Shown here: one piece after another, positions 1,138-45,412 of the stretch
Layout of the letters: the number at the start of each line of letters is the position of its first letter
Position numbering within the stretch: the first letter of the stretch is position 1
NCBI GenBank assembly: GCA_964019135.1
Contig: OZ025257.1
Location: 24,102,352-24,166,351 of the forward strand
Origin: Arenicola marina
Taxonomy: Eukaryota > Annelida > Polychaeta > Arenicolidae
Length of the DNA stretch: 64,000 nt
Reading direction: 5' to 3'
Position numbers and translations under genes: made by a program
The notes under the pieces: generated by a model
Told to the model about the DNA's origin: nothing
What the model saw: the letters and a program-made list of their open reading frames with translations, nothing else
Databases searched by the model: none

Positions 1138-1293
1138 GTTGGTGTTGGATGTCACGCATAGCCAGGGGAGCCCACTGGCTCTCCAGGCCCGCAACATACG
1201 GTTCCTGCACACAGCATTCAATGTGGGTGGTGAGAGTCTGGTGGCTGGTGATCACCAAGGCAACATATTCCTCTTTGATCTGGCAAAGAACAG
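1138..1293 (+). CDS. TBC1D31: TBC1D31 visible exon 1 (first WD40 blade)
   Basis: The acceptor is tttctgcag and the donor is AACAG|gtgtgt (phase 2). The product runs from LVLDVTHSQG to FLFDLAKNR and contains AGDHQGNIFLFDL, matching the first blade of human TBC1D31. The exon starts inside the protein, so the initiator exon is not here. I found no convincing start exon between positions 1 and 1137. Confidence 0.93.
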
Positions 1294-13200: not shown

Positions 13201-13718
13201 GAAAAATTACTGGTCGCCATTTTCATGTAGTCTGCGAAACTGTCCACCTCATAATATGGAGAGTGTCTTATAAGTTCTGGTTCCCCATTATCTTCTTCCT
13301 CCCTTTCATTATTGAGTTTTAAAATCTCACCCAAGCAATGGTGGCTCACGCCCCCATACTCCTTTAATATTTCTTGTTCTACAGGTATATCCATCTTGTG
13401 AAAGTAATTAACTTAAAATATAACATGGAATCACATTCTATCTTAACTTTGTCTTTCAAATTCCTCAGTTCCCAGATCCAACATGGCGTGAAACTAAACT
13501 TAAAATGCCTCAGCATTTGACAAATACAATTTTCACAACAAAACAGTACAATCAACATTGGTATGCAAATCGAAAAGACTTACACGAAACAAAATACAGA
13601 GGTCTCGCAAATCTATAATACAGTACAAAACATAGATGTCAAATAACATCAGATGAGAACAGTTGTGACATAATAATAGTAATTCACTTCTCCCCACCCA
13701 ATATCCCCCCCCCCCACC

Positions 13719-13751
<33 letters not shown>

Positions 13752-25700: not shown

Positions 25701-28700
25701 GCTAAAACCACAAGAAATTGGCACCGATGATATCTCAAATTTCCTTTGCCACAATGACAATTGACCAATCAATATTATTGACAATGTTATTAGTCATATT
25801 GATTGTTCTTTCGGTTTAGATTTTGAGATAATTAATGTTGTCATATCACTTTGGTGTTTGTTACATTGCAGACGGAGCTCCCGGACGGGTTAAACTTAGA
25901 TAAACTGATGGCCATCCTCAAAGGCTATGGCGAATACCCCGCTAAGTACAGGTACGAGATTAATGGGCCGTCATCAGCTGTTTCACTTCCGTGCCAAATT
26001 CCGCAGAAAGCACAATGAGCAGTGGCGCCATCTGGTGGAAAAAAAAACACCTATGGGTAACTGTCGAATAGCTCGGCCGGTAGAGGGCAGCACGTACAAA
26101 AGTCTGCCTTCCAGCCATGGGTAAGTATTGAATGGCTCAGCCAGTAGGGGGCAGCATTGCATTAGAGCTATACGATGTACGGAATGTTGGCGAGAAGTGA
26201 AGAGAAGTTATCACCCCTCAAAAACTGTTACTGGCGATAACTCAAGTTTGGGGGGGGGGGGGGTGGGCGCGAGGGGAGGGGAAGGGAGGGGTGGAGGTTG
26301 CAAAGGTAAAAATAATGGTGTGAAGTTGTATAATTAATAAAGAGGCTTTATATCTGCGATCTTGCGCACGGGAACTCAAACACCACAATGGAGTGGGTGC
26401 ATTACCGCAGGTGGTGTGCGTACATATATGTAGTCATCACTTGTCTCAGTCGCATTTGTCTGATTTTAACGTCATCGTACAGATCACAGCTCGATGCTCT
26501 TGTCATCCGGAGCGGAACTTACTGTGTATGCATGGTTCGTGCATTGCATTTGTGTTCTAATACTAAAATGGCAACTCATGATCTTTTCTTACCCATAGCT
26601 GATCGCCTGCGTCATTAACGCGCCAAGTCCCAGGTTTGATACCTTGTTATGCTCATCTCCATGGTTACCTCCTCCGTTCAGAATGTTCATCTGGCGCTCG
26701 TTGCTCCGCCTACCGGAGAATCACGCCGCGTACGGCGCTCTCGTGGACAAAGGGGTCCATCCGTCCTGCGAGAAGCTGCACGAGATGTACCCAATCAAAA
26801 GCCAGAAGCTGCTACGCGTTCTACAGAGGTATACGAGGCGTATATAAGTATACATATATATATGTGGCAGTATAGCAATCCGATAATTTTTAGTGTAAAT
26901 GTAAATTACTGGTTCCATTTTTTTTATCACTATATTACCGCGGCGATGGGGCTTAAGCTTAACTTCTCATGTTGAGATTTTATTACTGCACTTTTAGTGT
27001 AATATAGACCTGTCTTATTCCGCAGATTGTTTTGGTAGGTGTTATCAGTTGACGAGGGACCTTTGGAAGCAGGTTGTCCATACATAAATCAAAATCATAT
27101 TGACAACAATGTCTCTGCTAGGGTTGTTGTTGCATGTATATATGAATCCGTCATATTAAGCCTTCATTACTAATATTCAAGAGATTAAATTATGCTTTAT
27201 TTATCAATCGCGACAACCTACAGAAAGTTCATCCAACAAATCAGCCATGGCATATCTACAGGTTATAAGATCAAGACCACTTGAACAAAGCTGAATAACT
27301 TGATGCGAACGCTGTAGCGCATAACAGCTTTTAAATTATCTGTTTTCCTATGCCTGATTTTTTTTCTGTAGTGAAAAAATATGAATAATATGAAATTGAC
27401 TGACATGCCGTAATGTGAACAAAGACATGCTTTTTTCCAGAGTGATATCCGCCCTGGCACATTGGTCCCCAATATTCGGAGAGACCCAGTATCTCCCCCT
27501 AATGGCCTTCCCACTGGTCAAGCTCTTTCAAAACAACCAGCTCGTCTGCTTCGAAATCCTGGCCTCTATACTCAGTAAGTGAACATCTCATGCGTGCACT
27601 GGTGACCATGGCCATTGTTACTCGGGTCACCATGGTTACCCCAGTCGTCATGGTTCCCTTGTTGCCATAGTAAGGTTACCCCGGTGACCATGGTCAACCC
27701 GATGACCATGATTGTCACGGTGGTCATATTTACCACGCGCAATCCTTCGCGGTGGCGCAATCCTTCGGTCTGTGTTTGGGTTCGAATCCGACTTGTACAG
27801 ATGCCTTTACAATGGAGGGTAAGATGGCGACGTGCTATGATGAATGAATGTAAGTCTGAAAACATGATTATACAATATGTATAATATTTTTTATAACTTT
27901 ATATAACTTTCTCTGATAATAACTATTGAAATGACTTGTTTTTTTTAAGTCTCCCATTACCCCCATCTCCCTCGAGTGACGCACGTGGTGACTGTCTCTG
28001 TCTGACGTTGCAGCCAGTTGGTGTCAGCACTGGTTCGAGTACTTCCCCAATCCGCCGATCAACGTGCTAGGGCTGATTGAGAACGTGTTGGCCCACCACG
28101 ACAAGGAACTGCTCACCCACCTCGTCCACCACAACGTCACCTCACAGGTGAGGGTTTGGCCTGGTTTGTATATTCAGGACGCTTTAACCACTTTACGCCT
28201 GGCCGCTACTGGAGACGAAGATTACTCAATAATCTCCCATCTCTCCCCTCTAGACGTACGCCTGGCCGCTACTAGAGACTGTAGATTACTCAATAATCTC
28301 CCATCTCTCCCCTCTAGACGTACGCCTGGCCCCTGCTGGAGACTATAGATTACTCAATAATCTCCCATATCTCCCCTCTAGACGTACGCCTGGCCCCTGC
28401 TGGAGACTGTAGATTACTCAATAATCTCCCATCTCTCCCCTCTAGACGTACGCCTGGCCGCTACTAAGGACTGTAGATTACTCAATAATCTCCCATCTCT
28501 CCCCTCTAGACGTACGCCTGGCCCCTGCTGGAGACTGTAGATTACTCAATAATCTCCTCTCTCGCCCCTCTAGACGTACGCCTGGCCCCTGCCGGAGACT
28601 GTAGATTACTCAATAATCTCCCCTCTCTCCCCTCTAGACGTACGCCTGGCCCCTGCTGTAGACTGTAGATTACTCAATAATCTCCCCTCTCTCCCCTCTA

Positions 28701-31700
28701 GACGTACGCCTGGCCGCTACTAGAGACTGTAGATTACTCAATAATCTATCCTCTCTCCCCTCTAGACGTACGCCTGGCCCCTGCTTGAGACTGTAGAGTA
28801 CTCAATAATCTATCCTCTCTCCCCTCTAGACGTACGCCTGGCCCCTGCTTGAGACTGTAGAGTACTCAATAATCTCCCCATCTCTCCCCTTTAGACGTAC
28901 GCCTGGACCCTGCTGGAGACTGTAGATTACTCAATAATCTCCCCTCTCTCCCCTCTAGACGTACGGCTGGCCCCTGCTGGAGACTGTAGATTACTCAATA
29001 ATCTCCCCTCTCTCCCCTCTAGACGTACGCCTGGCCCCTGCTGGAGACTGTAGATTACTCAATAATCTATCATCTCTCCCCTCTAGACGTACGCCTGGCC
29101 CCTGCTGGAGACTGTAGATTACTCAATAATCTCCCCATCTCTCCCCTTTAGACGTACGCCTGGCCCCTGCTGGAGACTGTAGATTACTCAATAATCTCCC
29201 CTCTCTCCCCTCTAGACGTACGCCTGGCCCCTGCTGGAGACTATAGATTACTCAATAATCTCCCATATCTCCCCTCTAGACGTACGCCTGGCCCCTGCTG
29301 GAGACTGTAGATTACTCAATAATATCCCATCTCTTCCCTCTAGACGTACGCCTGGCCGCTACTAAGGACTGTAGATTACTCAATAATCTCCCATCTCTCC
29401 CCTCTAGACGTACGCCTGGCCCCTGCTGGAGACTGTAGATTACTCAATAATCTCCTCCCTCTCCCCTCTAGACGTACGCCTGGCCCCTGCCGGAGACTGT
29501 AGATTACTCAATAATCTCCCCTCTCTCCCCTCTAGACGTACGCCTGGCCCCTGCTGGAGACTGTAGATTACTCAATAATCTCCCCTCTCTCCCCTCTAGA
29601 CGTACGCCTGGCCGCTACTAGAGACTGTAGATTACTCAATAATCTCCCCTCTCTCCCCTCTAGACGTACGCCTGGCCCCTGCTGGAGACCCTGTTCTCGG
29701 AAGTGCTGACGCGGGATGAGTGGTTGAAGCTGATGGACAATGTCTTCAGCAACCACCCGTGCTTCCTGCTCATGGTGGTCGTGGCCTACTGCCTGAAGAA
29801 CCGAGGCCCTCTGCTCAAGTGTAGCGAGCTGGACGACTTCAAGGCAAGTATGATCGGTGGCAGGGAACCACTGGTCGATTCAGGAGTAGGTTGGTTGTTT
29901 TTTTAAGTAGGTCGCTTTGACCTCTGTGTGGGGAACTGGACGACTTCAAGGCAAGTACGCTCAGTGGCAGAGACCCACTGGTCGATTCGGGAGTGGGTTT
30001 GTTTGGTTTTTATGTCGGACGCTTTAACTTTTCATATCGCGATTATGGGAAGGGTCAATCAAGGTAAAGAGGAGCCATGTATGCGGGAGGAACCCCTTAC
30101 TCTTAACGATAGGAAGAAAGACCTTATCCCGCACAAATAAAGACACTTGGGGCCTCGAACCTCGCACCGGCCGCTTGGGCTGGTCCAGCAGAGCACAGTC
30201 TACCATAGCCGAACTCGCATGGTCGACTGACATACTGTTTACCGATATTGAGGAAAATAATGATTAGTGTTACTAAACTTTGCCAAATGTTAATATTGAT
30301 ACGTATGACGCATGTAAAATATTCTAAGCCGTATGCAAAGTTTTTTTTTTGTCTCACGCAAATTAGTTTTGGTAACCGTACTGTATGTGAAATTATTTAA
30401 ATTTCAAACTAATGGGTTTACTAGTCACAAATACTGTTAAAAACTGGTTTAACCTGAAATTTTACCAATCGTATGTATCTGCATTGCATTCATATTGGAA
30501 ATAAACGCATTTTATAACAAAAAAATAGCCTAACGCGAGTGGTCACGAGAGTGCCTAAAACACAAGTTCATTTTCCTCTGGCATAGTAATTAATTCTAAA
30601 TAATGTAGTCACTGTATTTTTTGTCTTCAAAAAATAAAGTTATTTTCGCGCAGAGCCAAAGCTGAAAATACGACTTGAAATATGAAATGTGCAATGTATC
30701 GCATGGGAGCCAAAGCGTTATAAGGTTAACAGCTAAAAAATGCAACTTGCAATGTGAAAGTGAATTATATATGAACCTTTATTATATATCTGCCACCGGT
30801 TCTGTCCGGCCCACAGTTTTTCTTTCATCACCGTAACGCGGTGGACGTGGTGCAAGTGGTACAGGAGGCCTACCGCCTGATGGACATCACCCCCGCAGAC
30901 CTCCACCCCCAGCAGACCGTCGAGGAGTTTGAACCCCTCACCAAGGGCCAGTACCCCGTCTTCAACAAGTACCCCAAGTTCATCGTCGACTATCAGGTGA
31001 ATATTCCTCAGGGCTTCAAGAGGCTCAGAGAAAATGTCCACCTGCATTAGGATTTTTCGCGATCTTATTCTCTAAAGAATGTCTTGATGGACACATTATC
31101 TGGCTGTGTGAATGTTAAATCCGTACGAAATAGAAGTGTTATCATATTTACACGAGAAGAACAACGGCAGTGATGCCCGAATTCTGATGACGTAGTACAC
31201 AAGAAAGTCACTTCCCACACGAATTGCACCATTTTGACCAAAAAAAGGGACTTAACGACATACTCTGTTATTTATTGCGTACAATAAGTGTGTTTCTTAG
31301 CTGTGAATTTGAATTTTAAAAGTTGTTCAGTCAAATGATTGTTGTATGAGCACCTTTAAGGTATCAATCTTCTCCATATGCCATGTAAGCCGCCATGAAA
31401 ATCCTTTATTTTAGTATTGAAACAGGCTTGAGTAAAAGGTGAGCTATACTAAGTTAGAGCATGAGGAATTTGGTACAGTCCCGAAAGGCTTCTCTGTCCA
31501 GTTTAGCCATCATATGTAACAAAAACTATCCATTTCACGTCAGGGAGCTCTAAAGTTATATCGAGAATTGCGATGAATCGTCCATATTTGCTAATTGCTA
31601 TGGCGCCTGAACGGAGCTCATTTTGCCATTTCAGGTACAAGAACGGGAACGCATTCGCCAGGAAGAGCTTGAATACCTACGACAACGGTAGGTTACCCTC

Positions 31701-37700: not shown

Positions 37701-40700
37701 AAACGATGCGCTGGTCGATCAGCGCCGCCTGGTGGAAGACGCGGAGGCGCGGCGGTTGAGATTGCTGGAGGCGGAAGTGGATGATGCGCGGCGCCACGTG
37801 GACACGCTGGACCACACACAGGACCGGATGTTCGGTGCGTCATCACCCGGGGCGACGGGTGGCGGGTCGGGGCGGGGCGGGGTGGGGGGCGGCGGAGGAT
37901 GGCGGGTAGCGGAGTGGGGCGTGGTGGGGGCGGGGCGGGGTGGGGTGTGTCGGAGGATGGCGGGTAGCGGAGTGGAGCGTGGTTGAGGGCGGGGTGGGAT
38001 GGGGGGGGGGGGGGGCAGAGGATAGCGGGGCCGGGACCAGGGGTGGGGGTGGAGAGAGTATTAGTCAACAGGGATTAAGCAATATATCTATATATTGACG
38101 ATAGAATGTGACTTGGGGCTAATTTCACCACATCTGGTAAAATTAATTGAATTTCTTAATCGTGTAAATCTTGTAAGGTTTGCGGCTATATGAGCAGGTT
38201 TCTCCTCCACGAAAGTCTTGCGAGTATCTTATTTTTATCTAATCGCAATAAACAATGAAATATTTCGTTTCGGCATATTATGCAGAATTAGTTTCTGTTT
38301 TGATGAAGAAAAACAAACAATTTTTATTATTACTATGATGCCATCAATTTGATTAATATTGTCTGGAAACAAAATGACACGTAAACCCTACACTACTACT
38401 AATCGCTCATCGGGTTTGTTCCTAAAGTTCGTCGGGTTACGATGTCGTAACTCCTGATTAGTAATTGTGATCCCCTGAATGATGAACATATACGTGTTAT
38501 TACGGTGATCCCGAACTGATCCGGAACATATCTCTGATCCGTGTGATCCAGATCACCTCAATGACATGCAGCAGGACCTGGTGGACATCCGGCGTGGAGC
38601 CAGAGACGATCGTCTGGTCGGCGACCGACACGACAAGTACATCAACGACTCCGAGTCCGAGGTCTCCGTCCAGTGTAAGTCTGTCCTGGGATCAGGGCCA
38701 CGTCCCGGTTCAGTCAGTCCGAGGTCTCCGTCCAGTGTAAATCTGTCCTGGGATCAGAGCCACGTCCCGGTTCAGTCAGTCCGAGGTCTCCGTCCAGTGT
38801 AAGTCTGTCCTGGGATCAGTGCCACGTCCCGGTTCAGTCAGTCCGAGGTCTCCGTCCAGTGTAAGTCTGTCCTGGGATCAGTGCCACGTCCCGGTTCAGT
38901 CAGTGCGAGGTCTCCGTCCAGTGTAAGTCTGTCCTGGGATCAGGGCCACGTCCCGGTTCAGTCAGTCCGAGGTCTCCGTCCAGTGTAAGTCTGTCCTGGG
39001 ATCAGAGCCACGTCCCGGTTCAGTCAGTCTGAGGTCTCCGTCCAGTGTAAGTCTGTCCTGGGATCGGGGCCACATCCCGGTTCAGTCAGTCTGTAGTCTC
39101 CGTCCAGTGTAAGTCTGTCCTGGGATCAGTGCCACGTCCCGGTTCAGTCAGTCTGAGGTCTCCGTCCAGTGTAAGTCTGTCCTGGGATCAGAGCCACGTC
39201 CCGGTTCAGTCAGTCTGAGGTCTCCGTCCAGTGTAAGTCTGTCCTGGGATCGGGGCCACGTCCCGGTTCAGTCAGTCTGAGGTCTCCGTCCAGTGTAAGT
39301 CTGTCCTGGGATCAGAGCCACGTCCCGGTTCAGTCAGTCTGAGGTCTCTGTCCAGTGTAAGTCTGTCCTGGGATCAGAGCCACGTCCTGGTTCAGTCAGT
39401 CTGAGGTCTCCGTCCTGTGTAAGTCTCACCTGGGATCAGAGCCACGTCCCGGTTCAGTCAGTCTGAGGTCTCTGTCCAGTGTAAGTCTGTCCTGGGATCA
39501 GAGCCACGTCCCGGTTCAGTCAGTCTGAGGTCTCCGTCCTGTGTAAGTCTCACCTGGGATCAGAGCCACGTCCCGGTTCAGTCAGTCCGAGGTCTCCGTC
39601 CAGTGTAAGTCTGTCCTGGGATCAGGGCCACGTCCCGGTTCCGTCAGTCCGAGGTCTCCGTGCAGTGTAAGTCTGTCCTGGGATCAGAGCCACGTCCCGG
39701 TTCAGTCAGTTTGAGGTCTCCGTCCAGTGTAAGTCTGTCCTGGGATCAGGGCCACGTCCCGGTTCCGTCAGTCCGAGGTCTCCGTGCAGTGTAAGTCTGT
39801 CCTGGGATCAGAGCCACGTCCCGGTTCCTTCAGTCCGAGGTCTCCGTCCAGTGTAAGTCTGTCCTGGGATCAGGGCCACGTCCCGGTTCAGTCAGTCCGA
39901 GGTCTCCGTCCAGTGTAAGTCTGTCCTGGGATCAGAGCCACGTCCCGGTTCAGTCAGTCCGAGGTCTCCGTCCAGTGTAAGTCTGTCCTGGGATCAGAGC
40001 CACGTCCCGGTTCAGTCAGTCTGAGGTCTCCGTCCAGTGTAAGTCTGTCCTGGGATCAGAGCCACGTCCCGGTTCAGTCAGTCCAAGGTCTCCGTCCTGT
40101 GTAAGTCTGTCCTGGGATCAGAGCCACGTCTCGGTTCAGTCAGTTTGAGGTCTCCGTCCAGTGTAAGTCTGTCCTGGGATCAGAGCCACGTCCCGGTTCA
40201 GTCAGTCCGAGGTCTCCGTCCAGTGTAAGTCTGTCCTGGGATCAGAGCCACGTCCCGGTTCAGTCAGTTTGAGGTCTCCGTCCCGTGTAAGTCTGTCCTG
40301 GGGTCGGGGCCACGTCCCGGTTCAGTCAGTTTGAGGTTTCCGTCCAGTGTAAGTCTGTCCTGGGATCAGAGCCACGTCCCGGTTCAGTCAGTCTGAGGTC
40401 TCTGTCCAGTGTAAGTTTGTCCTGGGATCAGAGCCACGTCCCGGTTCAGTCAGTCTGAGGTCTCCGTCCAGTGTAAGTCTGTCCTGGGATCAGGGCCACG
40501 TCCCGGTTCAGTCAGTCCGAGGTCTCCGTCCAGTGTAAGTCTGTCCTGGGATCAGGGCCACGTCCCGGTTCAGTCAGTCCGAGGTCTCCGTCCAGTGTAA
40601 GTCTGTCCTGGGATCAGAGCCACGTCCCGGTTCAGTCAGTCCGAGGTCTCCGTCCAGTGTAAGTCTGTCCTGGGATCAGAGCCACGTCCCGGTTCAGTCA

Positions 40701-43700
40701 GTCTGAGGTCTCCGTCCTGTGTAAGTCTCACCTGGGATCAGGGCCACGTCCCGGTTCAGTCAGTCCGAGGTCTCCGTCCAGTGTAAGTCTGTCCTGGGAT
40801 CAGAGCCACGTCCCGGTTCAGTCAGTCCGAGGTCTCCGTCCAGTGTAAGTCTCTCCTGGGATCAGGGCCACGTCCCGGTTCAGTCAGTCCGAGGTCTCCG
40901 TCCAGTGTAAGTCTGTCCTGGGATCAGGGCCACGTCCCGGTTCAGTCAGTCCGAGGTATCCGTCCAGTGTAAGTCTGTCCTGGGATCAGGGCCACGTCCC
41001 GGTTCCGTCAGTCCGAGGTCTCCGTGCAGTGTAAGTCTGTCCTGGGATCAAAGCCACGTCCCGGTTCAGTCAGTTTGAGGTCTCCGTCCAGTGTAAGTCT
41101 GTCCTGGGATCAGAGCCACGTCCCGGTTCAGTCAGTCCGAGGTCTCCGTCCAGTGTAAGTCTGTCCTGGGATCAGGGCCACGTCCCGGTTCAGTCAGTCT
41201 GAGGTCTCCGTCCAGTGTAAGTCTGTCCTGGGATCAGAGCCACGTCCCGGTTCAGTCAGTCCGAGGTCTCCGTCCAGTGTAAGTTTGTCCTGGGATCAGA
41301 GCCACGTCCCGGTTCAGTCAGTCTGAGGTCTCCGTCCAGTGTAAGTCTGTCCTGGGATCAGAGCCACGTCCCGGTTCAGTCAGTCCGAGGTCTCCGTCCA
41401 GTGTAAGTCTGTCCTGGGATCAGAGCCACGTCCCGGTTCAGCCAGTCCGAGGTCTCCGTCCAGTGTAAGTCTTTCCTGGGATCAGGGCCACGTCCCGGTT
41501 CAGTCAGCCTGAGGTCTCCGTCCAGTGTAAGTCTCACCTGGGATCAGGGCCACGTCCCGGTTCAGTCAGTCCGAGGTCTCCGTCCAGTGTAAGTCTGTCC
41601 TGGGATCAGAGCCACGTCCCGGTTCAGCCAGTCCGAGGTCTCCGTCCAGTGTAAGTTTGTCCTGGGATCAGAGCCACGTCCCGGTTCCTTCAGTCCGAGG
41701 TCTCCGTCCAGTGTAAGTCTGTCCTGGGATCAGAGCCACGTCCCGGCTCAGTCAGTCTGAGATCTCCGTGCAGTGTAAGTCTGTCCTGGGATCGGGGCCA
41801 CGTCCCGGTTCAGCCAGTCCGAGGTCTCCGTCCAGTGTAAGTCTGTCCTGGGATCAGAGCCACGTCCCGGTTCAGTCAGTCTGAGGTCTCCGTCCAGTGT
41901 AAGTCTGTCCTGGGATCAGGGCCACGTCCCGGTTCAGTCAGTCCGAGGTCTCCGTCCAGTGTAAGTCTGTCCTGGGATCGGGGCCACGTCCCGGTTCAGT
42001 CAGTCTGAGGTCTCCGTCCAGTGTAAGTCTGTCCTGGGATCAGAGCCACGTCCCGGTTCAGTCAGTCTGAGGTCTCCGTCCAGTGTAAGTCTGTCCTGGG
42101 ATCAGGGCCACGTCCCGGTTCAGTCAGTCCGAGGTCTCCGTCCAGTGTAAGTCTGTCCTGGGATCGGGGCCACGTCCCGGTTCAGTCAGTCTGAGGTCTC
42201 CGTCCAGTGTAAGTCTGTCCTGGGATCAGTGCCACGTCCCGGTTCAGTCAGTCTGAGGTCTCCGTCCAGTGTAAGTCTGTCCTGGGATCAGAGCCACGTC
42301 CCTGTTCAGTCAGTCTGAGGTCTCCGTCCAGTGTAAGTCTGTCCTGGGATCGGGGCCACGTCCCGGTTCAGTCAGTCCGAGGTCTCCGTCCAGTGTAAGT
42401 CTGTCCTGGGATCAGGGCCACGTCCCGGTTCAGTCAGTCTGAGGTCTCCGTCCTGTGTAAGTCTGTCCTGGGATCAGAGCCACGTCCCGGTTCAGTCAGT
42501 CCGAGGTCTCCGTCCAGTGTAAGTCTGTCCTGGGATCAGGGCCACGTCCCGGTTTAGTCAGTCTGAGGTCTCCGTCCTGTGTAAGTCTGTCCTGGGATCA
42601 GAGCCACGTCCCGGTTCAGTCAGTCTGAGGTCTCCGTCCAGTGTAAGTCTGTCCTGGGATCAGGGCCACGTCCCGGTTCAGTCAGTCCGAGGTCTCCGTG
42701 CAGTGTAAGTCTGTCCTGGGATCAAAGCCACGTCCCGGTTCAGTCAGTTTGAGGTCTCCGTCCAGTGTAAGTCTGTCCTGGGATCAGAGCCACGTCCCGG
42801 TTCAGTCAGTCCGAGGTCTCCGTCCAGTGTAAGTCTGTCCTGGGATCAGGGCCACGTCCCGGTTCAGTCAGTCTGAGGTCTCCGTCCAGTGTAAGTCTGT
42901 CCTGGGATCAGAGCCACGTCCCGGTTCAGTCAGTCCGAGGTCTCCGTCCAGTGTAAGTTTGTCCTGGGATCAGAGCCACGTCCCGGTTCAGTCAGTCTGA
43001 GGTCTCCGTCCAGTGTAAGTCTGTCCTGGGATCAGAGCCACGTCCCGGTTCAGTCAGTCCGAGGTCTCCGTCCAGTGTAAGTCTGTCCTGGGATCAGAGC
43101 CACGTCCCGGTTCAGCCAGTCCGAGGTCTCCGTCCAGTGTAAGTCTTTCCTGGGATCAGGGCCACGTCCCGGTTCAGTCAGCCTGAGGTCTCCGTCCAGT
43201 GTAAGTCTCACCTGGGATCAGGGCCACGTCCCGGTTCAGTCAGTCCGAGGTCTCCGTCCAGTGTAAGTCTGTCCTGGGATCAGAGCCACGTCCCGGTTCA
43301 GCCAGTCCGAGGTCTCCGTCCAGTGTAAGTTTGTCCTGGGATCAGAGCCACGTCCCGGTTCCTTCAGTCCGAGGTCTCCGTCCAGTGTAAGTCTGTCCTG
43401 GGATCAGAGCCACGTCCCGGCTCAGTCAGTCTGAGATCTCCGTGCAGTGTAAGTCTGTCCTGGGATCGGGGCCACGTCCCGGTTCAGCCAGTCCGAGGTC
43501 TCCGTCCAGTGTAAGTCTGTCCTGGGATCAGAGCCACGTCCCGGTTCAGTCAGTCTGAGGTCTCCGTCCAGTGTAAGTCTGTCCTGGGATCAGGGCCACG
43601 TCCCGGTTCAGTCAGTCCGAGGTCTCCGTCCAGTGTAAGTCTGTCCTGGGATCGGGGCCACGTCCCGGTTCAGTCAGTCTGAGGTCTCCGTCCAGTGTAA

Positions 43701-45068
43701 GTCTGTCCTGGGATCAGAGCCACGTCCCGGTTCAGTCAGTCTGAGGTCTCCGTCCAGTGTAAGTCTGTCCTGGGATCAGGGCCACGTCCCGGTTCAGTCA
43801 GTCCGAGGTCTCCGTCCAGTGTAAGTCTGTCCTGGGATCGGGGCCACGTCCCGGTTCAGTCAGTCTGAGGTCTCCGTCCAGTGTAAGTCTGTCCTGGGAT
43901 CAGTGCCACGTCCCGGTTCAGTCAGTCTGAGGTCTCCGTCCAGTGTAAGTCTGTCCTGGGATCAGAGCCACGTCCCTGTTCAGTCAGTCTGAGGTCTCCG
44001 TCCAGTGTAAGTCTGTCCTGGGATCGGGGCCACGTCCCGGTTCAGTCAGTCCGAGGTCTCCGTCCAGTGTAAGTCTGTCCTGGGATCAGGGCCACGTCCC
44101 GGTTCAGTCAGTCTGAGGTCTCCGTCCTGTGTAAGTCTGTCCTGGGATCAGAGCCACGTCCCGGTTCAGTCAGTCCGAGGTCTCCGTCCAGTGTAAGTCT
44201 GTCCTGGGATCAGGGCCACGTCCCGGTTTAGTCAGTCTGAGGTCTCCGTCCTGTGTAAGTCTGTCCTGGGATCAGAGCCACGTCCCGGTTCAGTCAGTCT
44301 GAGGTCTCCGTCCAGTGTAAGTCTGTCCTGGGATCAGGGCCACGTCCCGGTTCAGTCAGTCCGAGGTCTCCGTCCAGTGTAAGTCTGTCCTGGGATCAGA
44401 GCCACGTCCCGGTTCAGTCAGTTTGAGGTCTCCGTCCTGTGTAAGTCTCTCCTGGGATCAGAGCCACGTCCCGGTTCAGTCAGTCCGAGGTCTCCGTCCA
44501 GTGTAAGTCTGTCTTGGGATCAGGGCCACGTCCCGGTTCCGTCAGTCTGAGGTCTCCGTCCAGTGTAAGTCTGTCCTGGGATCAGGGCTATGGCGATGGC
44601 TGCTCCGTGACCATGGCTACTTCGTGACCATGGCGATGGCTGCTCTGTGACCATGGCGATGGCTGCACTGTGACCATGGCGATGGCTGCTGTGGGACCAT
44701 GGCGATGGCTACTCCGTCACCATGGCGATGGCTGCACTGTGACCATGGCGATGGCTGCACTGTGACCATGGCGATGGCTGCTCTGTGACCATGGCGATGG
44801 CTGCACTGTGACCATGGCGATGGCTGCTCTGGGACCATGGCGATGGCTACTCCGTCACCATGGCGATGGCTATGCTGGGGCGAGGCGCGAGCAGGCCGAG
44901 ACTGATTCTCAACGTGTCCTCTAATCTCTTCCAGTTTCGCTGGATCGAGGCCGACAGGGGTTCGAGGCTCGCGAGCGGGAGCTGATGGCCGACGTCCGCA
45001 AGATGAGGCAGCGACTGGCGCAGGACAGCCGCAACAAACGGCCTCCGCCCGCCTACATGGAGGCGTGA
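1138..45068 (+). CDS. TBC1D31: TBC1D31 (WDR67) orthologue, 22 exons, 5'-partial
   Basis: The gene encodes a WD40-TBC-coiled-coil protein. In vertebrates TBC1D31 is a centriolar-satellite/centrosomal protein linked to ciliogenesis. The 22 exons splice in frame at every junction, giving 1,048 residues and a stop at 45066-45068. The human protein is about 1,066 residues, so only roughly the first 20-25 residues are missing, presumably in an exon left of the window. Order of parts: WD40 blades (1138-23948), a Pro/basic linker (24633-24782), a TBC domain (25872-30996) and a long Glu/Arg/Gln coiled coil (31635-45068). Recognisable blocks are AGDHQGNIFLFDL, DTAQLWDLDTF, FDAGSSQVLGVLSQDGI, LKGYGEYPAKYRMFIWRSLL, QHWFEYFPNPPIN and KGQYPVFNKYPKFIVDYQ. 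The TBC domain lacks a clear IxxDxxR arginine finger, so GAP activity is doubtful (inference). Introns range from about 0.3 to 19.6 kb. Several introns contain arrays copied from the exon edges. Confidence 0.95.
1600..1715 (+). CDS. TBC1D31: TBC1D31 visible exon 2
   Basis: The acceptor is attgaccag and the donor is GATACTG|gtaata (phase 1). It encodes FTLVQKSGTPCTALAF and FLVALADYSLKCFDT, the second WD40 blade. Phase joins correctly on both sides. Confidence 0.93.
2771..2949 (+). CDS. TBC1D31: TBC1D31 visible exon 3
   Basis: The acceptor is gtgcttgcag and the donor is GTCAAG|gtcagt (phase 0). It encodes EVAWMKGHSSAVHTISLHAS and DTAQLWDLDTFERRRKLNI, a textbook WD40 blade with GH and WD dipeptides. 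Confidence 0.94.
2963..3352. repeat. Direct repeat copy 1 (~0.39 kb)
   Basis: Closely matches 4198-4556. Shared blocks include aataattatattctgtctt, ggccggctttatatccctgc and agtcttgattctaaa. It begins about 14 bp after the donor at 2949. Confidence 0.8.
3778..4000 (+). mobile_element. tRNA-derived SINE, family B
   Basis: A tRNA-like head with B-box ggttcgagccc, then a conserved body (gtgtggtcgcaggataaaga, cggggacatggctcc, cgatatgaccaaaa) ending aaagcgtcctgaat. At least eight relatives occur in the window. Confidence 0.75.
4198..4556. repeat. Direct repeat copy 2 (~0.36 kb)
   Basis: Second copy of 2963-3352, roughly 85-90% alike by eye. The 0.85 kb between the copies holds a SINE and no recognisable retroelement genes, so an LTR pair is unlikely. 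Confidence 0.8.
4557..5568. other. Intronic, no gene seen
   Basis: Unique-looking AT-rich sequence. No exon, tandem array or transposon signature was recognised. Confidence 0.5.
5569..6449. repeat. 47-bp C-rich minisatellite
   Basis: The unit approximates acccacccccaatttaccaa + ccaccccacccctaattttc + caagcaa. It is repeated about 18 times with a degenerate right half. The array is bracketed by direct repeats ggatcatcataacgca at its two ends. Confidence 0.9.
6450..8033. other. Intronic, no gene recognised
   Basis: Mixed sequence. 7140-7400 is GC-rich and has open frames on both strands, but no family could be recognised. A C-run lies at about 7780-7790. Confidence 0.4.
8105..8425. repeat. 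Second block of the C-rich minisatellite
   Basis: Begins actaacggacccatccccag, the same sequence as at 6119, and continues with aatttaccaaccaaccca units. It is a duplicated piece of the 5.6-6.4 kb array, preceded by a tRNA-like SINE head at 8040-8100. Confidence 0.8.
8673..8845 (+). mobile_element. tRNA-derived SINE, family A
   Basis: A tRNA-like head (gtagtggtaagcgcactaga, B-box gggttcgtatcc), a conserved middle (catgtttcatccagtaatcc) and tail gcgtacacaaaagcggcata then aaacacatattcat. Confidence 0.75.
9430..10047 (-). pseudogene. LINE ORF2 fragment: RT C-terminal region
   Basis: MKWHSHTNNVANKVSKVISI to LIVPHFNYCILAWGYHTTRL is typical of the region after the thumb in Jockey/CR1 LINEs. Roughly 40 residues that normally precede it are deleted. 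Confidence 0.85.
10129..11124 (+). mobile_element. Non-autonomous Helentron/Helitron2-like element
   Basis: A 996-bp insertion between A and T inside the LINE. Asymmetric inverted repeats: AAGACGAAAATTT is 2 bp from the left end and its complement AAATTTTCGTCTT about 28 bp before the right end. The right end has a perfect hairpin TCAAGC-TGT-GCTTGA shortly before a terminal CTAG followed by host T. There is no target duplication. These are the marks of Helitron-family ends (CTRR, 3' hairpin, A|T target), and the asymmetric repeats point to the Helitron2/Helentron branch. The interior has AAGGTCAAGGTCA-like motifs and no Rep/helicase gene. Confidence 0.78.
11121..11888 (-). pseudogene. LINE ORF2 fragment: reverse transcriptase fingers/palm
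   Basis: Contains YLDLSKAFDTINHEIL, TGVPQGSILGPLLF and IYADDTTLL with the catalytic ADD. The frame is cut after SSNDKI by the inserted element; removing the insert restores NYELRHISEWL in frame. Confidence 0.9.
11945..12940 (-). pseudogene. LINE ORF2 fragment: endonuclease C-part and linker
   Basis: GDYNIDLL and SDHFPYFLSL are the Asp/Asn and SDH motifs of the endonuclease. They lie in two frames because of a shift near 12690. The region between EN and RT follows (WITNGIIKSIAFRDKLYKKM). Confidence 0.82.
12948..13394 (-). pseudogene. LINE ORF2 fragment: endonuclease N-part
   Basis: Starts MDIPVEQEILKEYGG and includes LNCGSVNAKFDELQILLQNL and the ICLQESWLS motif. It breaks at a frameshift after YDYRIVK; the frame resumes as GNIYRPPRDVIENYKTFIEE. 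Confidence 0.85.
13401..13907. other. LINE 5' flank and poly(A) tract
   Basis: The region holds probable LINE 5' sequence and a 29-base A-run at about 13721-13749 next to a C-run. No gene seen. Confidence 0.5.
13908..14160 (-). CDS. Unidentified coding-like segment
   Basis: On the - strand an open stretch reads SALISQNLFLSILDGDPGAG, then RQAKYLLQRRNLTNIALFLT and KRWELLEKAANSALSRLAVS. Amphipathic composition and balanced codons make it look like real protein rather than repeat. I do not recognise the family. A ctccctgcag acceptor lies just upstream but in another frame. It could be an exon of a nested gene or a gene/transposon relic. Confidence 0.25.
14220..14400. repeat. C-rich/pyrimidine repeat
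   Basis: ccaccctgcgcccctcccct-type units in three to five degenerate copies. Low complexity; the open frames here are not genes. Confidence 0.8.
14405..15210. repeat. 34-bp minisatellite
   Basis: The unit approximates tattctgtcgacatcccact + tctgacaccatctt, about 24 copies. Most units hold GTCGAC. Confidence 0.92.
15240..16240. other. Intronic, GC-rich patch, no gene established
   Basis: 15240-15370 is C-rich. 15480-15740 is CpG-rich and holds a 35-codon frame starting at 15655 with a hydrophobic, signal-peptide-like start (SLLLVAARSAALASLA). No splice site or homology supports it. Confidence 0.3.
16240..16382. repeat. C-rich ~38-bp tandem repeat
   Basis: Three copies of cacgatcctaccctccccac + cccaccccacctcac. 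Confidence 0.8.
16690..16990. repeat. Polypurine tract
   Basis: About 300 bp of almost pure GA-rich sequence (gagagagacagagatagagg) on the + strand. No gene. Confidence 0.75.
17258..17905. repeat. 52-bp minisatellite
   Basis: The unit approximates tgacgatctgtccatcatgg + cttaacatgttcatgtcgtc + ctttcctccctc, about 12 copies, exact 52-bp spacing at 17664/17716/17768. The 170-codon frame across it is a product of the repeat. Confidence 0.92.
17906..20980. other. Intronic, repeat-derived pieces, no gene established
   Basis: C-runs occur at 18000-18350. An imperfect fold-back lies at 18465-18555. The 20880-20960 segment contains cgcatagtgggacagacagc then ttcattttattagtatagat, typical of the end of a transposable element. 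An open stretch near 19520-19620 (DPDRDNEEMTWDNLTLVDSD) is unassigned. Confidence 0.4.
18465..18555. repeat. Imperfect inverted repeat (fold-back)
   Basis: Arms agtttagctggctacggagc and its near-complement gctacgtagtcggctaaact flank about 20 bp. Possibly a MITE-type relic starting ggggcctattccactaa. Confidence 0.55.
20988..21180 (+). mobile_element. tRNA-derived SINE, family A
   Basis: tRNA-like head gtgcaatggttagcgcacca, B-box ggtttcgaatgc, then tcatgtttcatcgattaatt and tail tgtgcacaaaagcggccaaa followed by atttcatt. Confidence 0.75.
21745..21903 (-). mobile_element. SINE family A fragment
   Basis: The - strand tail gtgttttaggccagccttgt, ccaatgaacctcctgg and a tRNA-like head are present, joined to the next SINE. 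Confidence 0.5.
21904..22118 (-). mobile_element. tRNA-derived SINE, family B
   Basis: Reverse-orientation copy: ttattcaggacgctttaacc, gaagaaagacatgggatctt, ttatcctgcgaccacacaga and a tRNA-like head ending gccagcccc. Confidence 0.75.
22587..22735 (+). CDS. TBC1D31: TBC1D31 visible exon 4
   Basis: The acceptor is tcttcttcag and the donor is ACCAG|gtagca (phase 2). It encodes VFFLPLSNTIVTCFKDDSIF and the following blade, closely matching the human VFFLPLSNTI..CFKDNSIFAWE segment. It lies 19.6 kb downstream of the previous exon. Confidence 0.94.
23219..23378 (+). CDS. TBC1D31: TBC1D31 visible exon 5
   Basis: The acceptor is tctgtttcag and the donor is AGCCAG|gtaccg (phase 0). It encodes DGQLLVAGGRSRYLNVWSLD through EFLPNNFDAGSSQ, a WD40 blade. 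Confidence 0.94.
23560..23625. repeat. (TA)n microsatellite
   Basis: An AT-only stretch with (AT) of about 12 repeats just upstream of the acceptor at 23747. Confidence 0.9.
23748..23948 (+). CDS. TBC1D31: TBC1D31 visible exon 6 (last WD40 blades)
   Basis: The acceptor is ctacccgcgcag after a long C tract, and the donor is TGCCAG|gtatgg. It encodes VLGVLSQDGILRFIDIATCK to HVFSVKQLSAEVCQ. Both ends are phase 0. Confidence 0.94.
24100..24190 (+). mobile_element. SINE family B fragment
   Basis: Body piece aaagagtagggggttactcc to cgcgatataactaacatggg, without head. Confidence 0.6.
24633..24782 (+). CDS. TBC1D31: TBC1D31 visible exon 7 (linker)
   Basis: The acceptor is ttttgttgttag and the donor is ACACAT|gtaagt (phase 0, 150 nt). 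It begins PPPPLVKM, matching the conserved PPPPLVKV that follows the WD40 part in vertebrates. A poorly conserved basic, Thr-rich linker follows. Confidence 0.88.
24853..25392. repeat. 34-bp minisatellite in intron after exon 24633-24782
   Basis: The unit approximates gatattgacaggatgttgac + ctagatagaggtcc, about 16 copies. Unlike other arrays in this gene it contains no exon-edge sequence. Confidence 0.92.
25872..25951 (+). CDS. TBC1D31: TBC1D31 visible exon 8 (TBC domain start)
   Basis: The acceptor is gttacattgcag and the donor is TACAG|gtacga (phase 2). It encodes TELPDGLNLDKLMAILKGYG and EYPAKYR, the entry of the TBC domain. Confidence 0.93.
26022..26156. promoter_or_regulatory. Cluster of three CTCF-like motifs
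   Basis: Three sites resemble the CTCF core CCASYAGRKGGCR: ccaccagatggcgccac (reverse strand, 26022-26038), ccggtagagggcagcac (26077-26093) and ccagtagggggcagca (26141-26156). The last two sit in a 64-bp-offset tandem pair. Motif match only. Confidence 0.4.
26682..26828 (+). CDS. TBC1D31: TBC1D31 visible exon 9 (TBC)
   Basis: The acceptor is ctcctccgttcag and the donor is CAGAG|gtatac (phase 2). It encodes MFIWRSLLRLPENHAAYGAL and YPIKSQKLLRVLQ. The position where active TBC-GAPs carry IxxDxxR reads MYPIKSQKLLR, with no Asp/Arg finger. Confidence 0.94.
27441..27574 (+). CDS. TBC1D31: TBC1D31 visible exon 10 (TBC)
   Basis: The acceptor is tgcttttttccag and the donor is ATACTCA|gtaagt (phase 1). 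It encodes VISALAHWSPIFGETQYLPL and AFPLVKLFQNNQLVCFEILA. The usual YxQ glutamine-finger context is replaced by ETQYLPL. Confidence 0.94.
27585..27715. repeat. Palindrome-rich ccatggt tract
   Basis: Repeated ggtcaccatggttacc and gttgccatagtaag-like words. They resemble RFX X-boxes (GTNRCC..RGYAAC), but the context is a degenerate repeat. Confidence 0.4.
28014..28147 (+). CDS. TBC1D31: TBC1D31 visible exon 11 (TBC)
   Basis: The acceptor is ctgacgttgcag and the donor is TCACAG|gtgagg (phase 0). It encodes SWCQHWFEYFPNPPINVLGL and ENVLAHHDKELLTHL, nearly identical to human. Confidence 0.95.
28154..28193 (-). mobile_element. SINE family B terminal fragment
   Basis: The sequence gtatattcaggacgctttaa is followed abruptly by the first unit of the 64-bp array, so the SINE is truncated at the array edge. 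Confidence 0.65.
28194..29690 (+). repeat. 64-bp array of a duplicated 3' splice site and exon start
   Basis: The unit is acgtacgcctggcccctgct + ggagactgtagattactcaa + taatctcccctctctcccct + ctag. It is repeated about 22 times after a partial first unit and ends at the true exon start (29664). Each unit carries the real acceptor (tctcccctctag), its polypyrimidine tract and the first 26 nt of the exon (TYAWPLLE). Confidence 0.96.
29664..29843 (+). CDS. TBC1D31: TBC1D31 visible exon 12 (TBC), GC donor
   Basis: The acceptor is tctcccctctag and the exon begins TYAWPLLETLFSEVLTRDEW. It ends GACTTCAAG|gcaagt, a GC-AG intron. Only this donor keeps DDFK joined in frame to FFFHHRN of the next exon (human DDFEFFFHHRN). 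The first 26 nt plus the acceptor are repeated about 23 times upstream, and the last part plus the GC donor are repeated once downstream. Confidence 0.94.
29820..29996 (+). repeat. 107-bp tandem duplication of exon end plus GC donor
   Basis: The segment ctggacgacttcaaggcaag at 29829 and 29936 is a copy pair offset by 107 bp. Each continues with a related ~45-bp intronic segment (cactggtcgattc). Confidence 0.9.
30000..30200 (-). mobile_element. tRNA-derived SINE, family B
   Basis: Reverse copy: tcggacgctttaacttttca, gaggagccatgtatgcggga and a tRNA-like head ending caccggccgcttgggctgg. It starts at the edge of the 107-bp duplication. Confidence 0.65.
30201..30816. other. Intronic, nothing recognised
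   Basis: AT-rich sequence with no array, transposon or exon before the acceptor at 30816. Confidence 0.5.
30817..30996 (+). CDS. TBC1D31: TBC1D31 visible exon 13 (end of TBC)
   Basis: The acceptor is tccggcccacag and the donor is TATCAG|gtgaat (phase 0). It encodes FFFHHRNAVDVVQVVQEAYR to GQYPVFNKYPKFIVDYQ. Confidence 0.95.
31635..31687 (+). CDS. TBC1D31: TBC1D31 visible exon 14 (coiled coil start)
   Basis: A 53-nt exon with acceptor tgccatttcag and donor CAACG|gtaggt (phase 2). It encodes VQERERIRQEELEYLRQ, matching human TQERERIRNDELDYLRE. Confidence 0.93.
31688..32687. other. Intronic, SINE tail fragment and AT-rich sequence
   Basis: 31795-31850 is a family A SINE tail (tttagtccgtgtgtacacaa, gtggtctaaaacaccaat). 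(TA)n runs occur near 32178 and 32592. No gene. Confidence 0.5.
32688..32852 (+). mobile_element. tRNA-derived SINE, family A
   Basis: Head ccctggctcagtcggtaagc, then cacctgtatcattgcccc and tail gagcggcctaaaataccaac followed by atttcattt. It ends 100 bp before an exon. Confidence 0.7.
32950..33102 (+). CDS. TBC1D31: TBC1D31 visible exon 15 (coiled coil)
   Basis: The acceptor is gcctcccacag and the donor is GGTCAAG|gtgagg (phase 2). It encodes QVSMELQQETQRKQTEEEAW to VDEEQKLGDQRS. The GACCAGAGGTCAAG|gtgag edge recurs about ten times in the following intron. Confidence 0.93.
33085..33435 (+). repeat. Array of a duplicated 5' splice site (exon 32950-33102)
   Basis: The exon end cgaccagaggtcaag|gtgag recurs as gtgaccgaagttcaag|gtgag, gtgaccaaagttcaag|gtgag, atgacctaaggtcaag|gtaag and others, about ten times at ~31-36 bp spacing. 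Several copies are excellent donor matches. A further relative lies at 33757-33776. Confidence 0.8.
33775..33880. repeat. C-rich tract
   Basis: cctccccccatccgcctccc units; low complexity. Confidence 0.75.
33946..34070. repeat. Two-copy ~65-bp repeat before an acceptor
   Basis: ttattccccc..ctataattatcc and ttgacctttgacctttgacc occur twice. The second copy runs into the acceptor at 34074. Confidence 0.75.
34075..34210 (+). CDS. TBC1D31: TBC1D31 visible exon 16 (coiled coil)
   Basis: The acceptor is tttgacctgcag and the donor is CGCAAG|gtgagg (phase 0). It encodes LTAMNRELKMKELQLLEATR and QQQKEMELTRLDDEIRRK. A SINE begins only a few bases after the donor. Confidence 0.94.
34211..34442 (+). mobile_element. 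tRNA-derived SINE, family B
   Basis: Near-complete: head gccccgatagcttagtgggt, B-box ggttcgagcccc, body to cgatatgaccaacagtgg. It begins immediately after the donor at 34210. Confidence 0.8.
34443..34605 (+). mobile_element. tRNA-derived SINE, family A
   Basis: Head with B-box ggattcgaatccg, then cgtcccggcaggttccagtt and tail tcggcctagaacgccaattc followed by gtttcattt. Confidence 0.75.
35100..35192 (+). CDS. TBC1D31: TBC1D31 visible exon 17 (coiled coil)
   Basis: The acceptor is gtcacctgtcag and the donor is GAACAG|gtcagg (phase 0, 93 nt). It encodes AEMREVETQAAVEEADVKNM then ELRLQRKLLEQ. Confidence 0.92.
35225..35470. repeat. ~28-bp minisatellite
   Basis: The unit approximates tagattgtgcatagaaatta + cgcaccaa, about eight copies, 30 bp after a donor but not containing exon sequence. 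Confidence 0.85.
35613..35868 (+). mobile_element. tRNA-derived SINE, family B (best copy)
   Basis: Starts ggccggcccgacagctcagt. A-box-like gctcagtgggccagagcgct, B-box ggttcgagccc, body, and end aaagcgtcctgaataaccaa followed by an (ACCA)n tail. Confidence 0.85.
35884..36030 (+). mobile_element. tRNA-derived SINE, family A
   Basis: Head with B-box gggttcgaatcc, then ttcatccaaccatatttcat and tail atttagccttcatgtgtatc. Confidence 0.7.
36198..36338 (+). CDS. TBC1D31: TBC1D31 visible exon 18 (coiled coil)
   Basis: I chose acceptor gctcttcgatgatcag because it gives DLFRSHTEAEQKVKADYDTR, matching the human spacing. An upstream in-frame acceptor (ttctaccag, ending at 36156) would add about 14 residues and cannot be excluded. 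The donor is AGAAAG|gtgaca (phase 0). Confidence 0.88.
36575..36715 (+). mobile_element. tRNA-derived SINE, family A
   Basis: Head ccctatctcagttgtaaagc, B-box-like gtacgaattctgg, then catgcatgtttcattcaatc and a truncated tail. Confidence 0.65.
36912..36991 (+). mobile_element. SINE tail insertion flanked by a duplicated acceptor
   Basis: A family A tail (ggcccaatttagcccctgtg, gtggcctaaaacaccgattc, (ATTC)n) lies between two copies of tcacagacgctgc, the target-site duplication. The duplicated segment contains the splice acceptor and first 8 nt of the exon at 36992. Confidence 0.8.
36992..37186 (+). CDS. TBC1D31: TBC1D31 visible exon 19 (coiled coil)
   Basis: The acceptor is cattcattcacag, supplied by the tail of an inserted SINE fragment; the donor is CAGACG|gtgagt (phase 0). 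It encodes TLQQHLASADQLRSTATLRN to GLMRTVERQT, rich in Glu/Gln/Arg. The likely ancestral acceptor, 73 bp upstream, survives as a duplicate. Confidence 0.9.
37200..37345. repeat. ~39-bp tandem repeat after donor
   Basis: Three copies of ttaatgactcattccagacc + ctgtctatcactcag. Confidence 0.8.
37681..37834 (+). CDS. TBC1D31: TBC1D31 visible exon 20 (coiled coil)
   Basis: The acceptor is gttttcttttcag and the donor is ATGTTCG|gtgcgt (phase 1). It encodes LRDVDERNDALVDQRRLVED to RRHVDTLDHTQDRMF. A G-rich tandem region follows at once. Confidence 0.92.
37850..38060. repeat. G-rich tandem repeat with G-quadruplex potential
   Basis: Many G-runs of three or more (ggtggggggcggcggaggat) on the non-template strand just after a donor, with ~65-bp repeats of aggatggcgggtagcggagt. 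Confidence 0.75.
38552..38674 (+). CDS. TBC1D31: TBC1D31 visible exon 21
   Basis: The acceptor is ccgtgtgatccag and the donor is GTCCAGT|gtaagt (phase 1). It encodes HLNDMQQDLVDIRRGARDDR and ends DSESEVSVQ. Its last ~22 nt and the donor are the seed of the 62-bp array that fills the next 5.9 kb. Confidence 0.92.
38650..44586 (+). repeat. 62-bp array of a duplicated 5' splice site (~96 copies)
   Basis: The unit is ccgaggtctccgtccagtgt + aagtctgtcctgggatcaga + gccacgtcccggttcagtca + gt. The first unit is the end of exon 38552-38674 with its donor GTCCAGT|gtaagt, so nearly every unit carries the same strong donor. The spacing is exactly 62 bp (38781, 38843). It fills almost the whole last intron. 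Confidence 0.97.
41003..44370 (+). repeat. Higher-order duplication: 27 units (1,674 bp) twice
   Basis: Rare variants recur exactly 1,674 bp (27 x 62) apart: atcaaagcc at 41047 and 42721, agtctttcc at 41468 and 43142, cctgttcag at 42301 and 43975, ggtttagtc at 42551 and 44225. The copies span about 41003-42690 and 42677-44370. Confidence 0.92.
44587..44870 (+). repeat. 23-bp minisatellite
   Basis: The unit approximates gctgcactgtgaccatggcg + atg, about 12 copies, between the 62-bp array and the final acceptor. Confidence 0.93.
44935..45068 (+). CDS. TBC1D31: TBC1D31 visible exon 22 (terminal coding exon)
   Basis: The acceptor is taatctcttccag. With the T left over from the preceding exon it reads FSLDRGRQGFEARERELMAD, then VRKMRQRLAQ and the terminal RPPPAYMEA before TGA. 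Human has an equivalent VRNLRQRL near its C-terminus. The last ~30 nt, including the stop, are repeated downstream. Confidence 0.92.
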
Positions 45069-45412
45069 GGCCTCCGCCCGCCTACAGCGTGGAGACATGA
45101 TACATCCGCCCGCCTACAGCGTAGAGACGTGAGACCTCCGCCCGCCTACAGCGTGGAGACGTGAGGCCTCCGCCCGCCTACATGGAGGCATGAGACCTCC
45201 GCCCGCCTACATGGAGGCATGGGGCCTCCGTCCGCCTACGTGGAGGCATGAGACCTCCGCCCGCCTACAGCGTAGAGACGAGAGGCCTCCGCCCGCCTTG
45301 AGCGTGAGGCCTCCACCCGCCTACATGGAGGCATGAGACCTCCGCCCGCCTACAGCGTAGAGACGAGAGGCCTCCGCCCGCCTACAGCGTGAGGCCTCCG
45401 CCCGCCTACAGC
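45036..45412 (+). repeat. 29-33-bp array of the terminal codons and stop
   Basis: The coding end ggcctccgcccgcctacatg + gaggcgtga is repeated about 12 more times after the stop, alternating ctacatggaggcatgag and ctacagcgtggagacgtgag versions. Confidence 0.93.

Follow-up and report, generated by a model that had tools for sequence, protein, structure and literature searches.

Tandem repeats that span exon-intron boundaries have been described in amphioxus under the name of mirages, where they were reported from Adh3, the globin genes BflGb6 and BflGb9, TnC and PGBD5 (PMC3087553, PMC3902484). As set out in the cited sections of these papers, mirages occur at both the 5' and the 3' ends of introns, are built of 10-160 bp units, many copies of which contain splice signals, and leave regular splicing undisturbed (PMC3087553, PMC3902484). 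The authors of the globin study regarded mirages as possibly general in cephalochordates and their origin as unclear, and proposed them as a source of new introns (PMC3087553); they also described the draft assembly of one mirage as aberrant (PMC3087553, legend to Additional file 4). Tandem duplication is an accepted route to introns in the sections of two other papers that we cite here (PMC3443670, PMC4974935).

The TBC1D31 gene and its five edge arrays

The window, by which we mean the whole stretch of 64,000 nucleotides analysed here, contains a plus-strand gene that is identified as TBC1D31 and that carries tandem arrays at five of its coding edges:

1138..45068, plus strand, TBC1D31 gene, 22 exons visible and the 5' end beyond the window, with an open frame, named homologues and domains
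28194..29689, plus strand, acceptor array, 64-bp unit combining the last 38 nt of the intron with the first 26 nt of the exon, and the real acceptor at 29664
29829..30042, plus strand, GC-donor duplication, 107-bp unit in two copies, real donor after 29843
33087..33460, plus strand, degenerate donor array, ~10 units with lengths of 31-57 bp and the real donor after 33102
38654..44585, plus strand, large donor array, 62-bp unit made of 21 nt of exon end and 41 nt of intron start, real donor after 38674
45040..45410, plus strand, stop-codon array, the final ~27 nt of coding sequence present in 13 units of 24-32 bp, real stop at 45066-45068

Reading by eye gave nineteen of the exons (22587 to 45068), which together form a single open frame of 898 amino acids, and another three (1138-1293, 1600-1715 and 2771-2949) were located by means of relatives. 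Over the 22 visible exons the frame is open for 1,048 codons, with AG at all 22 acceptors, GT at 20 of the 21 donors and GC at the remaining one. The predicted protein has WD40 and RabGAP-TBC domains (Pfam). Among the matches listed, the closest full-length ones are 58% identical, several of them named TBC1D31, and partial matches reach 61-65% identity across 72-78% of the query. The WD40 propeller, the RabGAP-TBC domain and the name of the best matches all agree on the identity of the predicted product. The window also contains a LINE reverse transcriptase (120 listed relatives, 50-64% identical) and a neighbouring gene on the minus strand, of which exons 63913-63849, 63693-63610 and 63451-63395 were joined and two further exons, near 54165 and 53651, were spotted only. 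The joined three-exon piece contained no Pfam domain, a codon-score exon search downstream of TBC1D31 gave noisy output, and a scan of the window against Rfam yielded zero matches.

An earlier note on this DNA had reported five tandem arrays at the coding edges of the gene. The arrays were borne out by Tandem Repeats Finder (TRF), which returned 70 rows for the window, together with unit-by-unit splitting: there are 24 edge copies at the acceptor, ~10 and ~96 at the two donors, two at the GC donor and 13 at the stop end. The 24 exon-start copies of the acceptor array comprise a truncated one at the left end, 22 whole ones and the real exon at 29664. The intron part of the unit contains TACTCAATAAT, which we take to be branch-point-like, followed by a pyrimidine tract and TAG, and both this word and the TAG are intact in 22 of the 22 whole units. 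The large donor array extends over 5.9 kb and consists of 95 full units plus a partial one (95.7 copies). All 95 full units have the GT and 94 have GTAAGT, and the totals for the array are 85 perfect copies of CAGTGTAAGT and 95 of GTAAGT. In the stop-codon array the first copy is the real coding end and the other twelve are located in the 3' UTR (12.6 copies according to TRF).

The two copies at the GC donor (29829-29935 and 29936-30042) are identical at 82 of 107 positions. The degenerate donor array is the weakest of the five. It consists of 10 TCAAGGT-type units from 33098, the real one included, and only the segment 33253-33433, which is outside the exon, is called by TRF; for the 40-base word at the 33102 junction, the score is 33 in the intron of that junction but does not exceed 23 in unrelated DNA of the window.

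Comparison with known boundary repeats

The units of four of the five TBC1D31 arrays span an exon-intron boundary as in the amphioxus mirages, while the fifth spans the stop codon. Also as in amphioxus, both intron ends are used (one acceptor and three donors) and splice-signal motifs are present in many copies. Mirages show length instability between haplotypes or cells, with which the block duplications seen in the one assembly of TBC1D31 are compatible. The present case differs from the amphioxus mirages in being found in another phylum with five arrays in a single gene, in having up to ~96 units compared to 3-6 in the globin case, and in that one of the arrays sits at the stop codon, away from splice sites.

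Minisatellite units at exon-intron boundaries are likewise described in the cited part of a study of repeats in human segmental duplications, but those differ among recent paralogues and they alter exons or create introns, whereas TBC1D31 is single in the window and its frame is unchanged (PMC2812944). A further system shares with TBC1D31 the tandem duplication across an intron-exon boundary, as far as the cited section describes it (PMC4974935), but in TBC1D31 no new intron flanked by a pair of copies is seen. In the titles and sections of the open-licence literature covered here we recognised no lophotrochozoan boundary array and no stop-codon array. The TBC1D31 arrays are an extreme case of a known type of structure, in another phylum.

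The phylogenetic placement was examined with a tree of 25 TBC1D31 proteins, consisting of the query and 24 of the 120 listed relatives, with named groups preferred. The query was placed among the lophotrochozoans (100/98), where it adjoins the annelid Lamellibrachia and one unnamed sequence (93/95), and a tree of 44 rows recovered identical neighbours (96/94). The branch leading to the query is long, and the annelid Owenia is placed outside its group. By these trees, a lophotrochozoan affiliation of the predicted protein is well supported and an annelid affiliation is probable. An amphioxus origin was rejected: the protein is 56% identical to Branchiostoma, and a union with three Branchiostoma proteins was rejected with a p-AU of 0.00021. 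Judging from the placement of the predicted protein, mirage-type arrays are present beyond the cephalochordates, to which their range had so far been limited.

Reading frame and direction of copying

The reading frame is kept by one of 23 acceptors, one of the two GC donors, one of 10 donors in the degenerate array and one of 96 in the large array, and every time this is the real copy. With any of the 22 acceptor decoys, translation would meet a stop no more than 57 codons from the exon start. In the large array, only the first of the 96 donors leads to the normal protein end; among the remaining 95, the frame closes at codon index 1046 in 93 cases and at 1041 in one case, and in the last case the spliced coding sequence contains no stop. 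Early stops also follow from the second GC donor and from the nine decoy donors of the degenerate array. Since the false sites are equal to the real site at the splice motif in both large arrays, motif strength cannot guide the choice there, and the spliceosome must choose by position.

To examine the direction of copying, we inspected conservation in an alignment with 16 of the 120 relatives listed. In the acceptor unit the exon half codes for TYAWPLLET, with YxWP conserved throughout the 16 relatives, the exon half of the GC-donor unit encodes LDDFK with DF kept in 16 of 16, and the degenerate donor array begins at a QR that is also kept in 16 of 16. For these three arrays the alignment supports the order that the exon was there first and was then copied outward, and their conserved exon halves make it unlikely that the exon was made from the array. 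The exon half of the 62-bp donor unit (SESEVSVQ) is poorly conserved, with the SLDR that follows it kept in many of the 16 relatives, and the stop end RPPPAYMEA is conserved only in part. For this reason the case for copying from exon to array at these two is one of position; conservation does not decide it for the 62-bp donor array and does so only in part for the stop end. Copying from exon to array is in this manner supported for most of the arrays.

Proposed origin of the arrays

On the basis of the anatomy of the arrays, the near identity of the decoy motifs to the real ones in the two large arrays and a frame that is retained only via the real copy, we consider the TBC1D31 arrays to be probably mirage-type minisatellites that were born across coding edges and that are tolerated via the choice of exon-proximal sites. 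A segment of ~29-107 bp straddling a coding edge would have been duplicated in tandem, after which slippage or unequal exchange would have extended the array away from the exon and, at a later stage, whole blocks of units would have been duplicated. Coding constraint would persist on the copy that is continuous with the exon body, and the remaining copies would be non-coding decoys. We infer that the spliceosome chooses by position, in that exon definition would pair the nearest sites across the exon, which is the real copy at each splice-site array. The arrays would then be near neutral and could reach kilobases in size. The enrichment of arrays at edges relative to chance (P 0.002-0.08, see below) hints at more than neutral placement, and we have counted it against this explanation.

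Position of the arrays relative to chance

To quantify the tendency of coding edges to be repeated in their surroundings, we performed an echo scan in which a 40-base word centred on each of the 44 coding edges (22 acceptors, 21 donors and the stop) was aligned to the non-coding DNA next to it, over at most 1.5 kb, and to as many as 200 random places in the window. Five of the 44 edges repeat the edge itself above anything in unrelated window DNA. The acceptors A34075 and A36992 also exceed unrelated DNA, but via intron-side sequence only, namely a 65-bp x1.9 repeat ending short of the AG and an ATTC run, respectively. No stand-out repeat was detected by the scan at the remaining 37 edges, for which the lowest p was that of A36198 (score 21, p 0.021). 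Among 3,000 random intron words, 29% met their own repeat nearby at a score of at least 33, as compared to five of 44 edges via the edge itself; random words do so this often because the introns are full of arrays, edge-born ones included. The raw positions point against an edge preference, and where the arrays were born is the fairer question.

For the birth test, 25 arrays in the gene were hand-curated from the TRF rows with a period of at least 13, merging overlapping rows and leaving out AT-rich and single-base runs; the degenerate donor array was begun at 33098 by eye. Every array was reduced to a single unit, and these units were distributed randomly over sequence that is not purely coding. 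In the whole gene 5 of 25 arrays straddle an edge versus 1.26 expected (P 0.0067; for at least four, P 0.033), and in the 3' half, without the 19.6-kb intron, the corresponding numbers are 5 of 14 versus 1.73 (P 0.019, or 0.079 for four or more). When only arrays of at least five copies in the 3' half were considered, 4 of 6 straddle an edge versus 0.72 expected (P 0.0023, or 0.0245 for three or more). The results suggest an enrichment of edge-straddling arrays, with P values of 0.002-0.08 across these choices in one gene, which falls short of proof because the gene had attracted attention before it was tested. The proposal in the earlier note that junctions are preferred birthplaces is accordingly suggested only: the excess over 1.26 speaks for it, while the post hoc choice of the gene, the hand-curated list and the opposite signal from the raw positions speak against it.

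It is possible, if somewhat doubtful, that coding edges are true hot spots for tandem duplication, for example through R-loops, nucleosome edges or sequence-driven slip, a reading that is compatible with the birth of tolerated minisatellites across coding edges. The excess in the whole gene and among the longer arrays of the 3' half is what such hot spots have in their favour, along with the repeated reports from amphioxus genes in the sections cited (PMC3087553, PMC3902484). Yet 39 of the 44 edges are without an edge array, the single gene was chosen post hoc with P values of up to 0.079 (3' half, four or more arrays), and no TRF array was noticed at the five exons of the minus-strand neighbouring gene, judged by position only.

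Sequence variation in the repeat units

The mismatch rate in the donor motif is 0.0018 over the 95 units of the large array, as compared to 0.031-0.041 elsewhere in the 62-bp unit. This near invariance might be taken to indicate that the arrays are used, with duplicated sites that set the speed of splicing, act as a sponge for U1 or U2 or yield regulated isoforms and are kept by selection. We find this improbable: 33 of the 62 unit columns never vary, so that the invariance of the donor motif is not special and its maintenance by selection is unsupported; each decoy choice tested breaks the frame; and the stop-codon array has no splice site. The earlier note had left it open if duplicated splice sites are tolerated or used. 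Tolerance fits with the many intact false sites and the open, conserved frame, whereas use is unsupported, every choice other than the real site breaking the protein.

There are 40 distinct units among the 95 of the donor array and 18 among the 22 of the acceptor array. The donor array shows duplicated blocks with a period of 27 units, and the acceptor array contains two blocks of 7 units with an identity of 441/448. Such unit variation and block duplication represent ordinary minisatellite turnover and speak against a simple assembly error. We therefore regard it as highly improbable that the assembler has multiplied one or a few copies; the arrays are known from a single assembly, block duplications could mask an error in copy number, and the draft assembly of one amphioxus mirage was aberrant according to the cited legend (PMC3087553), but the units differ in many combinations, unlike repeated errors, and the five arrays are separate and have different units. 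A tie between the arrays and the origin of new introns by tandem duplication is hardly credible either, despite the proposal of mirages as a source of introns (PMC3087553) and the acceptance of this route in the sections cited (PMC3443670, PMC4974935), as the array edge is not repeated at the opposite end of either large-array intron (within their own introns, the acceptor word at 44935 reaches a score of 17 and the donor word at 28147 one of 12, which is the chance level for both) and every array multiplies an already existing junction.

Implications

With tolerated, mirage-type minisatellites as the preferred explanation, TBC1D31 is a gene with dozens of false splice sites and an otherwise intact coding sequence. 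Its 22 intact acceptor decoys, together with 95 donor decoys matching the real site at the motif, make the gene a natural experiment on splice-site choice, which local motif strength cannot explain and nearness to the exon can. The presence of such arrays outside the cephalochordates allows the way in which they are born, and the role they play in intron evolution, to be tested across animals. As a speculation that we consider rather unlikely to hold, coding-edge minisatellites may be general in animals with exon definition, where the edges would be hot spots and the duplicates would be invisible to the spliceosome, so that up to ~100 intact sites could remain silent, at stop codons too. If so, the presence or absence of arrays across lineages would report on exon versus intron definition.

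Two repeats in the TBC1D31 gene, both found with Tandem Repeats Finder, lay outside exon edges.

33948-34075: 65-bp repeat of a pyrimidine-rich region, x1.9 (also by edge-word alignment)
44590-44871: 23-bp unit, x12.5

The former ended at 34070, shortly 5' of the acceptor AG of exon 34075, and did not include the exon; the latter, a second array in its intron, followed immediately after the 62-bp donor array and had no edge in common with any exon.

A repeated SINE, labelled tRNA-like by eye, was present at 9 places in the window, counting the query copy by similarity to which the others were identified.

35601-35880 (+): query copy
3774-4006, 21904-22096, 24111-24184, 28162-28194: other places
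29999-30117, 34215-34445, 52596-52855, 60541-60645: other places (continued)

Seven places were within the gene, three of them starting 5-49 bases past a donor (28147, the second copy of the duplicated GC donor, and 34210). The end of one SINE piece coincided exactly with the start of the acceptor array. The 19.6-kb intron (2950-22586) contained a reverse-transcriptase ORF (11124-12026, minus strand; RVT_1 match) with 50-64% identity to relatives among the matches listed.

The neighbouring minus-strand coiled-coil gene (exons at 63913-63395, also near 54165 and 53651) presumably resembles RNF212; a Pfam search with the joined piece (63913-63395) gave no matches, and no Tandem Repeats Finder array lay at these exons.

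In several acceptor-array units (28194-29664), three third-codon positions jointly differed from the real exon start (CCC CTG CTG versus CCG CTA CTA), all synonymously. These units may be relics of an earlier version of the exon edge.
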